Assembly: GCA_001803165.1 (NCBI GenBank) | Contig: MHAZ01000021.1 | Span: 1 to 64,000, forward strand | Direction of reading: 5' to 3' | Length of the DNA stretch: 64,000 bases | Source: Stygiobacter sp. RIFOXYC2_FULL_38_25 | GTDB taxonomy: Bacteria > Bacteroidota > Ignavibacteria > Ignavibacteriales > Melioribacteraceae | Shown: one piece after another, positions 40,989 through 45,052 of the stretch | Position numbering within the stretch: the first letter of the stretch is position 1 | Layout of the letters: each line of letters starts with the position of its first letter | Notes under the pieces: model-generated | What the model saw: the letters and a program-made list of their open reading frames with translations, nothing else | Databases searched by the model: none | Told to the model about the DNA's origin: nothing | Translations under genes and position numbers: made by a program

Positions 40989-41331
40989 TATTTACGAATT
41001 GTTACCCGAAATAGTTGGTGAAGAGCAGATGTACATTTCGAGTCTAGTTAAGAACATGGACGACAAACAAGCTTTTCAATTTGCCAACATTTACCGCGCG
41101 CGCCGGAAAGACCCGCAGGTAATTCTTTTGGTTACACTTGTAGGTTTTCTAGGTATATCCGGCATTCAAAGATTTTTAACGGACCAAATCGGTTTAGGAA
41201 TTTTATACCTGCTCACCGGTGGTATTTGTATGATTGGAACAATCATTGATTTGGTGAATTACAAGAAAATTGCGTTTGAGTATAATCAGAAGCAAGCTAA
41301 CCAAGTTGCAGTAATGATTAAAGGAATGTAA
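40981..41331 (+). CDS. TM2-domain membrane protein
   Basis: 116-aa protein with a cytoplasmic N-terminus and a TM2 domain: 'VILLVTLVGFLGISGIQRFL' followed by 'GLGILYLLTGGICMIGTIID'. The two helices are joined by a short turn, as in the family, whose function is unknown. It overlaps the DUF2752 gene by 8 bases. Confidence 0.88.
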   Translation: MANIYELLPEIVGEEQMYISSLVKNMDDKQAFQFANIYRARRKDPQVILLVTLVGFLGISGIQRFLTDQIGLGILYLLTGGICMIGTIIDLVNYKKIAFEYNQKQANQVAVMIKGM

Positions 41332-41344
41332 TGTTTAATAATTT

Positions 41345-41450
41345 GTCATTCTGAACGACTCGCCCGATTTATGGTCGAAGCGGGAGTGAAGAATCTGCTT
41401 CTTAAATAACAAAGGGATTCGTCTTCGACTACGGGACTCATCAGAATGAC
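41345..41450. repeat. Double copy of the dispersed repeat (R4), ends facing outward
   Basis: GTCATTCTGA (41345-41354) at one end and its exact inverse TCAGAATGAC (41441-41450) at the other. GAAGAATCT (41388-41396) and 'GGATTCGTCTTCG' lie inside. The two units in head-to-head order give 10-bp terminal inverted repeats on a 106-bp element. It lies between the convergent TM2 and marC genes. Confidence 0.75.
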
Positions 41451-41461
41451 ATTTTCCTTTT

Positions 41462-42106
41462 TCAATTTGGTTTTATTCCAATCATTTCTTGAATCATCGG
41501 TTTCAGTCCGGCAAACATTAATTCCACCGCGATAACCATTAGAATCAAACCCATAATTCTCATCAAAACTTTGTTGCCGTTGTCTCCCAATACTTTAAGA
41601 ATAGTTCTGCTTCCCACAAGTATTAGGTAAGTTGTAAATAGAACAACAATAATTACTCCAAATAGAATTGCTTTCTCGGAATAATTTCTTGCATCGTTGA
41701 ACAAGACTATAGTCATCGTAATTGAGCCGGGACCGCAAATGATTGGTATTCCGAGTGGAGTTATAGCAAACTCGTTTACAAATTCACTGAAACTTTGTCC
41801 TTCTTCTTTCAATCTATTCATTTTGGCTTGAAGCATATCGTAGCCGGAGAGGAAGAATAAAATTCCGCCGACAATTCTTAATCCGTTTACCGAAATATGG
41901 AAAAACTCGAAGATGAAATTTCCGGCGAAAGCAAAGAGTACCATGATTATGAAAGCAGTAAGCACACCTTTGAACGCGATTCTCTGTACTTCTTTGTGAG
42001 TCATATTCTTTGTTAAAGAAGTAAAGTATGGAATAATTCCAAAAGGAGTTACCATTGTAAAAAGCGAGGTAAATGCCAGAAAACCAAACTGAAAGATTCT
42101 ATCCAT
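41462..42106 (-). CDS. MarC-family membrane protein
   Basis: 214-aa polytopic protein of the MarC (UPF0056) family, with six predicted helices and the family block 'TPLGIPIICGPGSITMTIV' near residue 115. MarC proteins are integral membrane proteins of unsettled function. The gene diverges from the cysE leader region and shares its 240-base promoter gap. Confidence 0.88.
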   Translation of the reverse strand: MDRIFQFGFLAFTSLFTMVTPFGIIPYFTSLTKNMTHKEVQRIAFKGVLTAFIIMVLFAFAGNFIFEFFHISVNGLRIVGGILFFLSGYDMLQAKMNRLKEEGQSFSEFVNEFAITPLGIPIICGPGSITMTIVLFNDARNYSEKAILFGVIIVVLFTTYLILVGSRTILKVLGDNGNKVLMRIMGLILMVIAVELMFAGLKPMIQEMIGIKPN

Positions 42107-42173
42107 GTTTTTCCCGTGAACTAAAATTCTACTTGTAATGTTATTCTATCAAGCGCAGAGTTCATAATTTTTT

Positions 42174-42181
42174 TAACTTTG
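42174..42181 (+). promoter_or_regulatory. TAACTTTG -7 box for the cysE leader transcript
   Basis: TAACTTTG fits TAnnTTTG. It sits 16 bases before the leader-peptide ATG at 42197, so transcription would begin near 42188 and place the leader ORF at the very start of the RNA. The -33 element is poor. Confidence 0.45.
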
Positions 42182-42196
42182 CACCGCAAATATAAA

Positions 42197-42292
42197 ATGA
42201 TTGCTCTCATAGAAACATACCGAAATTTTTTAAGAACCGATTCCGCCCGGGAATCTTCTTCTGCTTGTACTGCACTTTGCTGTTGTTGCTAG
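42197..42292 (+). CDS. 31-aa cysteine-rich leader peptide of cysE
   Basis: An ORF of 31 codons starting 'MIALIETYRN' and ending 'ESSSACTALCCCC', with stop TAG at 42290-42292, 54 bases before the cysE ATG. The last four sense codons are TGC TGT TGT TGC. Five of the last eight residues are cysteine, and three serines come just before. The protein downstream makes O-acetylserine from serine, the committed step to cysteine. The layout is that of ribosome-stalling leader peptides: low charged tRNA-Cys would stall the ribosome on the run. An 11-bp bulged hairpin (42232-42260) lies within the ORF. No classical terminator was seen between the peptide and cysE. Confidence 0.72.
   Translation: MIALIETYRNFLRTDSARESSSACTALCCCC
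42232..42260 (+). promoter_or_regulatory. Hairpin inside the cysE leader ORF
   Basis: AAGAA-cc-GATTCC (42232-42244), loop GCCCG, GGAATC-TTCTT (42250-42260): eleven pairs with a two-base bulge. Translation of the leader would unfold it; it lies just before the serine and cysteine codons. Confidence 0.5.
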
Positions 42293-42346
42293 TCTAATCT
42301 TCTGCTCCACACTTAATTAAAACAATTTTAAGATAGGAAACCCATT

Positions 42347-43198
42347 ATGGAAAAGAATTATTTATTTGATGAATTTACTAATGAATTTTTGAACAAGCGC
42401 CAAGCCCACGCATGCACTAATTCGCTGAAAGCGGAAGCTGTAAACTATTTGCACGAATTGATTGATTTCCTTTTTCCACACTTCTCCAAGAAAGTTTATT
42501 CGGATTCCGAAGATGTATTGGCAAACTTACAGTTGTTAAAGCGCAATCTTGTTGAGTTGATAAAACAGTTAAACGGAAACACTCCACAAAACGCAAGCGA
42601 AATAGCAGATTTGTTTATAAATAAAATTCCGGAAATTCATTCTAAACTTTGGAATGACGCGCAAGCCATTCACTCCGGCGATCCGGCTTCTGAAAGTATT
42701 GATGAAGTAATTCTCGCTTACCCGGGATTTATGGCAATTGTAATCTACCGTCTCTCGCACGAGCTTTATCTTCTTAAAGTGCCAATCATTCCCAGAATCA
42801 TGTCCGAGCACGCGCATCAAATTACCGGAATTGATATTCATCCCGGCGCAAGTATCGGAAGTCCATTTTTTATTGATCATGGAACCGGAATTGTAATCGG
42901 CGAGACAACAGTGATTGGCAAGAATGTAAAAATATATCAAGGTGTAACACTTGGCGCGCTAAGTGTTGATAAATCGCTCGCGCAGACAAAGCGCCACCCA
43001 ACAATTGAAGATGATGTAATAATTTACTCGCAAGCTGTAATTCTTGGTGGCAGTACGGTAATTGGAAAGAATAGTGTAATTGGAGGCAACTCTTGGGTTA
43101 CACAAAGCATTCCGCCTGATTCGGTTGTGTATAACAAAAGTGAAGTGAGAATCAAAACCAACAAAGAATTTGAAGAGCCGATAAATTTTATTATTTGA
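42347..43198 (+). CDS. cysE: Serine O-acetyltransferase
   Basis: 283-aa enzyme making O-acetylserine from serine and acetyl-CoA, the first step of cysteine synthesis. The N-terminal 150 residues are the helical SATase domain. The left-handed hexapeptide-repeat domain follows, with 'GIDIHPGASIGSPFFIDHGTG' style turns near 165 (catalytic His and Asp in 'IDHGTGIVIGE'), then 'TLGALSV' and 'RHPTIEDDV'. The start ATG 42347 has AGGAAA upstream. The gene is preceded by a cysteine-rich leader peptide and followed by a hairpin at 43263, so it is probably a single-gene transcript. Confidence 0.93.
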   Translation: MEKNYLFDEFTNEFLNKRQAHACTNSLKAEAVNYLHELIDFLFPHFSKKVYSDSEDVLANLQLLKRNLVELIKQLNGNTPQNASEIADLFINKIPEIHSKLWNDAQAIHSGDPASESIDEVILAYPGFMAIVIYRLSHELYLLKVPIIPRIMSEHAHQITGIDIHPGASIGSPFFIDHGTGIVIGETTVIGKNVKIYQGVTLGALSVDKSLAQTKRHPTIEDDVIIYSQAVILGGSTVIGKNSVIGGNSWVTQSIPPDSVVYNKSEVRIKTNKEFEEPINFII

Positions 43199-43567
43199 TT
43201 GAAGCTATTCTTCTCAAAAGAAACTTCTTGTTCTTGATCGTGATCTTAATCTTGATCTAAAATGCCGCCGCGTTTTATTGCGGCAGCTTTCGGGAATTAT
43301 TTATCAACAGCTAAATAAAGTGTCATACAACAATTTAATTCATTGACTTACATTTGTAGAAGTACACTACTAGATATCGAAATTAAATCCTATATCTACC
43401 GATATTATAAAATCAAGCTCACTCCTAATTTCAACTTCGTCTGTAATATTTCTTAAAACCGTTACTCTAAAATTTTGCTGCCTCAAAATGATTTCTTCTC
43501 ATTTCATTATCTTGCTTAGTAAAGATTGTTACTCCACTAACCGTTTATTAAAAAGCGGGTTTGAATT
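43199..43567. other. Intergenic region without a gene
   Basis: This 369-base stretch holds the cysE terminator hairpin near its start and TTGATC-type short repeats ('GATCGTGATCTTAATC') at about 43237-43252. The remainder is AT-rich and presumably holds the promoter of the GH140-like gene. I see no ORF with a convincing start and no RNA gene. Confidence 0.6.
43263..43291 (+). terminator. Hairpin after cysE
   Basis: TGCCGC (43263-43268) pairs with GCGGCA (43280-43285) around a T-rich loop, preceded by AAAA and followed by GCTTTC. The stem is 6 bp and can shift register (GCCGC at 43267 with GCGGC). Probable terminator. Confidence 0.55.
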
Positions 43568-45052
43568 ATGCTTAAGTCTATTAACAAAGCAAAAAAAATA
43601 TTCCCATCCTACTTGATATTTATTTTGATCCCGCTCAATTTGTTTTATTCCGGTTCATACGCGCAAACAATTCCGCAGAAAATTGTCGTTTCGCCAAACA
43701 AAAGATTTCTTCAGTACGAAACCGGAACACCCTTCTTATGGCAAGGCGATACAGCATGGCATCTCTTCAATAAACTTACCAGAGAAGAAGCCAAACAATA
43801 TCTCCGGAATCGTGCTGTAAAAGGTTTTAATGTAATACAGTGCATGGTAATTCCCCATTTTCCCTTAACTAATATTTATGGCGATTCTGCTTTTATAAAT
43901 AGCAACCCTTTAGAACCTTTGGTAACCAGCGGTAATAATTATGAGGATACCGATCAATACGATTATTGGGATCACATTACTTTTATAATAGATGAAGCAG
44001 CAAGGAATAATATTTACGTTGCTCTTGTTCCAATTTGGGGAAGCGTTGTTAAGTCATCAAAATTTACTGTTACTCAAATGGAAAAATACGCCGGCTGGTT
44101 AGCCTCCATGATGAAATGCAAAGCAAACATTTTTTGGATAAATGGCGGTGATATTCGTGGAGATATAAAACCGGAAATCTGGACTGCTATAGGAAATACT
44201 TTACGCAAAACCGACCCAAGTCATTTAATAACTTTTCATCCGTTTGGAAGAACACAATCTTCAACGTGGTTTCATAATGCCGAATGGCTTGATTTCAATA
44301 TGTTTCAATCCGGTCACCGAGCTTACGATCAACGCAAGGGTGACGGAGCCGAAAGTTGGAAAGGTGAAGACAACTGGCGTTATGTTTTAGAAGACCTGGC
44401 TTTGCAGCCACAAAAGCCAACGCTCGATGGAGAACCTTCTTACGAAAATATTCCCAAAGGTCTTCATGATACCACCCAGCCTTATTGGCAAGCCGGCGAT
44501 TGCCGGCGTTATATGTATTGGTCTTTGTTTGCCGGTTCTTTAGGACATACATACGGAGATAATGCCGTGATGCAATTTTACAAACCAGCCGATACAAAAC
44601 CAGCTTACGGTGCCAAGAATTTTTGGTATGAAGCAATTGATGACTCCGGATCTTTTCAAATTTGTTATGCAACAAAATTATTACTCTCGCGGCCTTTTTT
44701 CGAACGGGTTTATGATTCAACGCTTGTTATTAATCAAGGAACGCGATACAATTTTATTATTACTGCAAGGGGGAATGAGTATTTGTTCGCTTATACCTAT
44801 ACAGGACGGGGATTTAAAATTAAGATGGGACGTATTTCCGGAAGCAAAGTGAAAGCATGGTGGTACAATCCGAGAAATGGTATTGCACAATTGATTGGAA
44901 CAATAAAAAATTGCGGAATAAAACTATTTACACCACCCGGTAAAGAAGAAAACGGGAACGATTGGGTATTGGTACTTGATGACGCCTCCAAGAAATTTCC
45001 TATTCCCGGAGCTGCAAACCTATCTGACAACAAAAGTTGCCGGATTGAATAA
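43568..45052 (+). CDS. GH140-like (apiosidase-type) secreted glycoside hydrolase
   Basis: 494-aa secreted protein. A signal peptide spans about 1-33 ('LFYSGSYAQ'). A DUF4038/GH140 TIM-barrel domain follows: 'GTPFLWQGDTAWHLFNKL' near residue 55, 'VKGFNVIQCMVIPH', 'IFWINGGDIRGD' and 'PTLDGEPSYENIP' (probable catalytic acid Glu near 301). A C-terminal putative collagen-binding-type domain covers about 400-485 ('WYNPRNGIAQLIG'). Family members cleave apiose-containing pectin side chains, but many have unknown plant or microbial glycan targets. It is not flanked by SusC/D genes. Confidence 0.85.
   Translation: MLKSINKAKKIFPSYLIFILIPLNLFYSGSYAQTIPQKIVVSPNKRFLQYETGTPFLWQGDTAWHLFNKLTREEAKQYLRNRAVKGFNVIQCMVIPHFPLTNIYGDSAFINSNPLEPLVTSGNNYEDTDQYDYWDHITFIIDEAARNNIYVALVPIWGSVVKSSKFTVTQMEKYAGWLASMMKCKANIFWINGGDIRGDIKPEIWTAIGNTLRKTDPSHLITFHPFGRTQSSTWFHNAEWLDFNMFQSGHRAYDQRKGDGAESWKGEDNWRYVLEDLALQPQKPTLDGEPSYENIPKGLHDTTQPYWQAGDCRRYMYWSLFAGSLGHTYGDNAVMQFYKPADTKPAYGAKNFWYEAIDDSGSFQICYATKLLLSRPFFERVYDSTLVINQGTRYNFIITARGNEYLFAYTYTGRGFKIKMGRISGSKVKAWWYNPRNGIAQLIGTIKNCGIKLFTPPGKEENGNDWVLVLDDASKKFPIPGAANLSDNKSCRIE

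Follow-up and report, generated by a model that had tools for sequence, protein, structure and literature searches.

The stretch of DNA analysed here, hereafter the window, comprises 64,000 nt of contig MHAZ01000021.1 from Stygiobacter sp. RIFOXYC2_FULL_38_25, and it contains a short, cysteine-rich open reading frame (ORF) directly upstream of the serine O-acetyltransferase gene cysE. The relevant features are as follows.

42174..42181, + strand: TAACTTTG, candidate -7 promoter box of the form TAnnTTTG, seen in a minority of related leaders
42197..42292, + strand: leader peptide ORF of 31 codons plus TAG, MIALIETYRNFLRTDSARESSSACTALCCCC, recognized from the sequence and from Cys-ended ORFs at the same place in relatives
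42266..42268, + strand: isolated Cys codon TGT before the Cys run, from the sequence
42278..42289, + strand: putative regulatory Cys codons TGC TGT TGT TGC, abutting the stop, from the sequence, a pattern scan and family conservation
42293..42346, + strand: spacer of 54 nt with 12 C and 4 G (C-rich, G-poor), without a terminator; candidate Rho loading region
42335..42338, + strand: AGGA, Shine-Dalgarno-like, upstream of cysE, noted by eye
42347..43198, + strand: cysE, serine O-acetyltransferase of 283 aa, from profile matches

The leader ORF begins with an ATG at 42197 and ends with a TAG at 42290-42292, leaving 54 nt before the cysE start codon at 42347, and five Cys fall within its last eight codons, with a Ser-Ser-Ser just upstream. 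The initial annotation had described a 31-codon ORF ending in Cys-Cys-Cys-Cys, with the codons at 42278-42289, that stops 54 bases ahead of cysE, and all of this was found as described. A TTG at 42179 is a possible alternative start, giving a leader frame of 37 aa. No match to the ORF was found in Pfam or NCBIfam. The product of cysE matches NCBIfam NF041874 (EpsC-type serine O-acetyltransferase) at 167.7 bits, against a cut-off of 150, and TIGR01172 (cysE) at 170.3 bits, under the cut-off of 210.65. The gene that follows (43568-45052) codes for an apiosidase-like glycoside hydrolase that carries Collagen_bind_2, instead of the cysK of most relatives. Further upstream, in the interval between a TM2-domain gene and a marC-like gene, positions 41345-41450 have ends like an inverted repeat (GTCATTCTGA ... 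TCAGAATGAC) and resemble a small repeated element.

TAnnTTTG is presumably the -7 promoter consensus of the Bacteroidota type, and we take TAACTTTG to be a candidate match to it. The box reported by the initial annotation is indeed present, but the gap to the ATG is 15 nt, not 16. Such a position would suggest a very short RNA 5' end, if the box is read correctly; the initial annotation's placing of the ORF at the start of the RNA depends on this box and is a possibility. Boxes of this form occur at -32 to -10 in 6 of 31 family leaders, compared with 1.1 expected, and are weaker evidence than the conservation of the Cys run.

Conservation of the leader and its link to cysE

Conservation was assessed in 79 genomes of the window's family (f1), 42 of which have this cysE at E values up to 1e-60; all 42 upstream regions were examined, and chance expectations were taken from dinucleotide shuffles of those same regions. 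The other 37 genomes, many of them near-complete, are without this serine acetyltransferase. With ATG, GTG and TTG starts allowed, an upstream ORF having at least two Cys in its last 12 codons was found at 40 of the 42 loci, against 1.96 in shuffles, and ATG starts alone gave 33 against 1.0. For at least three Cys, the corresponding numbers were 25 against 0.16 and, with ATG starts only, 20 against 0.07, which bears out the initial view that five Cys in eight codons is far from random. The two loci that fall outside this pattern (L016 and L017) have no Cys-ended upstream ORF.

By eye, the leaders at these 42 loci comprise 25 of a polyCys kind, with endings such as CCCC, CCCCC, CCCCCC, CICCCN and CCTSCCCN, and 15 of a second kind ending in TCIC. 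Within the polyCys kind, the usage of TGC and TGT varies, the run ranges from 3 to 6 Cys, and the remaining peptide drifts. For example, within the genus, the leaders of the window and of G002 are identical at 22 of 31 residues, compared with 95% identity between their cysE proteins; for G003 the values are 16 of 31 and 88%, and the Cys run is kept in both cases. Across six close pairs, likewise, leaders change more quickly than cysE except at the Cys end, which is retained. The leaders of L030 and L031, which belong to a different family in the order, share little beyond CCCCLCCCC, and the cysE proteins are 99% identical. The exception among the pairs is L008 and L232, whose leaders are nearly identical; in L008, a TGA replaces a Cys codon seen in L232, which takes the run from five Cys to three. 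The initial annotation had proposed an alignment of this kind, to see whether the Cys codons are kept while the rest of the peptide drifts, and had named a lack of Cys-run conservation in relatives as grounds for giving up the idea; the codons are kept and the rest does drift. The locus thus has the features by which amino-acid leader peptides are recognized, namely a short ORF that lies directly upstream of a biosynthesis gene and has many codons for the product of that pathway, the regulatory codons being conserved and the remainder free to change.

The association with cysteine genes is also specific. In an unbiased search, four Cys codons with TAA or TAG directly after them were found at 91 sites in 58 genomes, and five of these sites are directly upstream of cysE (in G000, G001, G002, G003 and G013), where rough arithmetic predicts about 0.001 by chance. 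Among the 87 sites that remain when G000, G001, G002 and G003 are excluded, nine have an ATG at least 8 codons upstream, and only L171 (the site in G013) is followed by cysE or cysK within 1500 nt; no other gene under such control was recognized downstream of these 87 sites, the first 60 residues of the ORFs being judged by eye. One site, L169, has a glyA-like gene 154 nt downstream, but no ATG ORF. Scanning the 58 genomes for TCIC followed by a stop gave about 128 sites, five of which lie upstream of cysE (G014, G015, G020, G025 and G031), and among the 30 loci examined that carry such sites, a short ATG ORF was found at just L284 and L298, with no recognized cysteine gene downstream of either. 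Eight family genomes without this cysE contained 41 sites with four Cys codons and a TRR end, and the 30 examined included no cysteine gene and a single short ORF, with a TTG start (L397). A search for five Cys codons and a stop over 395 genomes was too noisy to use. Downstream, cysK follows cysE at 24 of the 31 family loci whose sequence extends far enough to tell and at 56 of 73 over all loci measured; it does so neither in the window nor in G002, and the window's case counts against the interpretation favoured below.

Bordetella has copper-responsive Cys-rich upstream ORFs, and a metal- or redox-sensing peptide, or an independent small protein, could by coincidence have come to lie before cysE. 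Such an origin is highly improbable given the strict pairing with cysE and cysK, the variable run length, the drifting peptide without a Pfam or NCBIfam match and the counterparts with terminators that other lineages have at cysE; for a metal-sensing ORF in particular, it is the conservation pattern that speaks against it. The leader is real and conserved, and very likely has a cysteine-sensing role, presumably exercised through ribosome stalling, as far as can be read from sequence.

The spacer and the mode of control

No terminator-like site is present in the window's spacer, and none was flagged between leader ORF and cysE in family f1. A search of Rfam 15 across 41000-44000, with E up to 1, found nothing above threshold, the one GcvB match (18.2 bits against a cut-off of 42) lying behind cysE; a Cys-tRNA T-box and a SAM riboswitch were rejected, as no known Rfam family occurs in the region. 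A conserved fold was also sought in 31 family leaders, and the 50 nt after the stop gave a mean z of -0.10. Mean values of -0.84 for the whole leader and -0.70 for the 45 nt before the Cys run are slight and not common to all leaders, so that no reading is built on them, and the window's leader folds no better than its shuffles (z 0.81). The initial annotation, having seen neither a riboswitch nor a typical terminator, was therefore right to be cautious about mechanism: a classical attenuator of the trp/his type, with an intrinsic terminator and a competing antiterminator, is found in relatives and is lacking in the window. A weak terminator-like hairpin, GATTCCGCCCGGGAATC, with a T-rich tail, does lie within the leader ORF itself (42239-42255), upstream of the Cys run, and could be a pause hairpin; similar hairpins were flagged in some relatives (L005, L023 and L234), though not in all.

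The spacers do share a composition. The first 32 nt after the stop average 21% C and 6% G, with C exceeding G in 28 of 29 leaders (L006 is the exception), compared with 19% C, 15% G and 23 of 39 for the regions upstream of 39 other genes in the window (p=6e-6), a comparison limited by control genes taken from a single genome and by the common ancestry of the leaders. RNA that is rich in C, poor in G and unstructured is a loading substrate for Rho, and Rho is encoded in the window's genome; both features are those of a tna-type Rho-dependent leader. In the tna leader of E. coli, which is Rho-dependent, the TnaC peptide undergoes a specific arrest on excess tryptophan. As in that leader, the end of the ORF adjoins the would-be Rho loading region, which a stalled ribosome would shield; unlike the specific arrest of TnaC on excess tryptophan, the signal proposed here is a shortage of cysteine.

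The explanation that we hold with moderate confidence as a whole is that the leader peptide is translated, responds to the level of charged tRNA-Cys and thereby governs cysE, or cysE-cysK in most relatives, with a Rho-dependent output. When cysteine is plentiful, the ribosome would read the Cys run, terminate at the adjoining stop and depart, whereupon Rho would load on the bare C-rich, G-poor, unstructured spacer and end transcription at or just inside cysE. When cysteine is scarce, a ribosome stalled on the Cys codons beside the spacer would block the loading of Rho, and cysE would be transcribed. Rho-dependent termination is favoured because there is neither a terminator nor a conserved fold, because the cysE start would not be opened by a stalled ribosome (see below), and because the spacers share their composition and the window's genome encodes Rho; it would be the likeliest output, with a probability even or a little better. 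What counts against this step is the spacer, which in most polyCys leaders has only some 50-60 nt and is thus short for everything from rut site to stop point; transcription would then have to end within cysE, and ribosomes translating that gene could keep Rho from acting.

The main rival to Rho-dependent attenuation is translational control of the sort proposed for the mycobacterial polycysteine ORFs, in which a stalled ribosome would promote translation of cysE by changing how the RNA folds or how ribosomes reach the gene, with no premature termination. The layout, with a Cys run near the stop and no terminator, is the same as in those ORFs, a Shine-Dalgarno-like AGGA stands before the cysE start, and according to the available text of a review (PMC9031893), the ORFs of Mycobacterium smegmatis regulate downstream translation by cysteine-dependent elongation speed. 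Masking the footprint of a stalled ribosome in 31 leaders, however, barely shifts how much of the cysE start region is unpaired (mean fraction 0.483 to 0.495), although L030, L024, L004 and L005 individually show some opening. Sequestration of the cysE start by the Cys-run RNA was accordingly rejected as a general effect in these 31 leaders. Together with the lack of conserved structure and of any excess folding in the window's own leader, this makes translational attenuation possible but rather unlikely.

The TCIC ending and terminator-based leaders at cysE

The second kind of family leader (15 of 42) ends in Gly-Tyr-x-x-Thr-Cys-(I/L/M/V)-Cys-stop. The Tyr and both Cys are invariant in all 15, Thr is present in 13, Gly in 12, and the stop is immediate in 14. 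In pairwise comparisons, the codons for G, Y, T, C and C differ by 142 synonymous and 65 amino-acid changing substitutions, compared with 20 and 178 at the two codons just upstream of the motif; the excess of synonymous change indicates that the peptide, and not the DNA alone, is under constraint, even though these pair counts are not independent, because the rows are related. It is conceivable that the nascent chain itself, at least in the TCIC form, causes a cysteine-dependent stall near the stop, the more so as two Cys codons are few for a sensor that counts codons. Two such codons do suffice, in the available text of PMC8632094, for a published attenuator candidate at cysS; the kinship of the rows weakens the pair counts, and the window's leader is of the polyCys form, in which other residues drift. 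An arrest peptide is on balance improbable. The TCIC form is new within the literature searched.

At the same gene in other lineages, Cys-rich ORFs are followed by intrinsic terminators. In family f5, this arrangement was found at 6 of 11 cysE loci in a survey of the class (L244, L249, L250, L252, L255 and L268, with a degenerate Cys-Tyr-Cys in place of the run in L244) and at one f5 locus additional to those 11 (L323), and in family f10 at one of seven (L238). Named records with the same arrangement are L035 (Ignavibacteriaceae), L059 and L067 (Sphingobacteriales) and L060 (Bacteroidales, with two Cys). Antiterminators were sought at 12 hand-picked loci, of which L268 could not be placed and was dropped; at 8 of the 11 scored, the stretch that lies downstream of the Cys run and upstream of the terminator forms a pairing with the first terminator arm that outdoes 95% of shuffles, and at L250, L252 and L255 the pairing did not pass the 5% level. 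L035 is the clearest attenuator, with ten pairs against the terminator arm and a z of -3.75 for the whole leader. Predicted classical attenuators, made up of a Cys-run ORF, an antiterminator and an intrinsic terminator, thus stand at cysE in further families of the class and in a small number of Bacteroidia, and their presence ties the upstream ORF position to cysteine sensing independently of the window's family. The form MKNCCC was found in 6 of 395 genomes, with no match resembling the leader of a cysteine gene, and is therefore confined to relatives of L059 and L067, not a leader of the phylum as a whole.

Leader kinds cluster on the cysE tree, with 8 changes compared with a shuffled mean of 40.8, the label "none" on that tree taking in a few weak candidates (L251, L256 and L258). 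Several findings count against the favoured, Rho-dependent explanation: the family loci L016 and L017 have no such ORF, no leader was found at cysE in f2 (0 of 5 loci) or f25 (0 of 5), and f3 has a leader at 2 of 8 loci, its other six being nested among polyCys rows. Two f3 loci whose cysE is without a Cys leader (L012 and L013) have in common a stretch around GTTGGCGCAGCGCACTTCTGTTTACATGC, 90-120 nt before cysE, perhaps another control element.

Relation to known leader peptides

Polycysteine leader ORFs are known from Actinobacteria, as the initial annotation stated: by the available text of each, PMC1262725 (2005) predicted them and PMC4633059 (2015) observed them by profiling, and according to citing papers Canestrari et al. 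2020 tested them; PMC1262725 suggested Rho for the mycobacterial ORFs by analogy with tna. Like these, as far as the available texts describe them, the window's leader is a small ORF whose Cys run lies close to the stop, and it has a cysteine gene downstream, no terminator and a pyrimidine-rich spacer. It differs in belonging to another phylum and in its first gene, cysE-cysK here compared with the cys operon, cysA2 and cbs there; no shared sequence is claimed, the TCIC form is additional here, and the start would lie near, not at, the RNA end if the promoter box is right. A second comparison is uORFC-8-2, which in the available text of PMC8632094 precedes cysS in Rhodobacterales and is considered an attenuator candidate; it combines a tandem pair of Cys codons with RNA structure and intrinsic termination. 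The two are alike in having Cys codons in a short ORF upstream of a cysteine-related gene, and unlike in that the window has neither structure nor terminator; relatives L035, L238, L249 and L323 have both.

For Bacteroidota or Ignavibacteria, a literature search found no description of a cysteine leader peptide; PMC9723704 gives leader-peptide clues at amino-acid operons in a flavobacterium and, in its available text, does not name cysteine. The window's system is not of a new kind; as far as was searched, its novelty lies in where it occurs, in the TCIC ending and in the exchange of one output for another at a single gene. A wider scheme, which we regard as doubtful, would be a Bacteroidota-wide cysteine attenuation at cysE, in which the sensor is kept and the output swapped: some families would use intrinsic termination, Melioribacteraceae-like bacteria would rely on Rho or on translational control, and in one branch the codon sensor would have been converted into a cysteine arrest peptide of specific sequence (Gly-Tyr-x-x-Thr-Cys-Ile-Cys-stop).

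A cysteine-sensing leader at this gene would bring such peptides into a phylum for which, by the available text of PMC9723704, only general hints of amino-acid leader peptides have existed so far. It would also provide an evolutionary series at one gene, in which the same sensing codons accompany intrinsic terminators in certain lineages and occur elsewhere with none visible, and it would make the long-noted mechanistic puzzle of the terminator-less actinobacterial cysteine leaders comparable in a second phylum. The window's genus group includes a cultured member, Stygiobacter electus (L054), whose leader is the same as that of G004.
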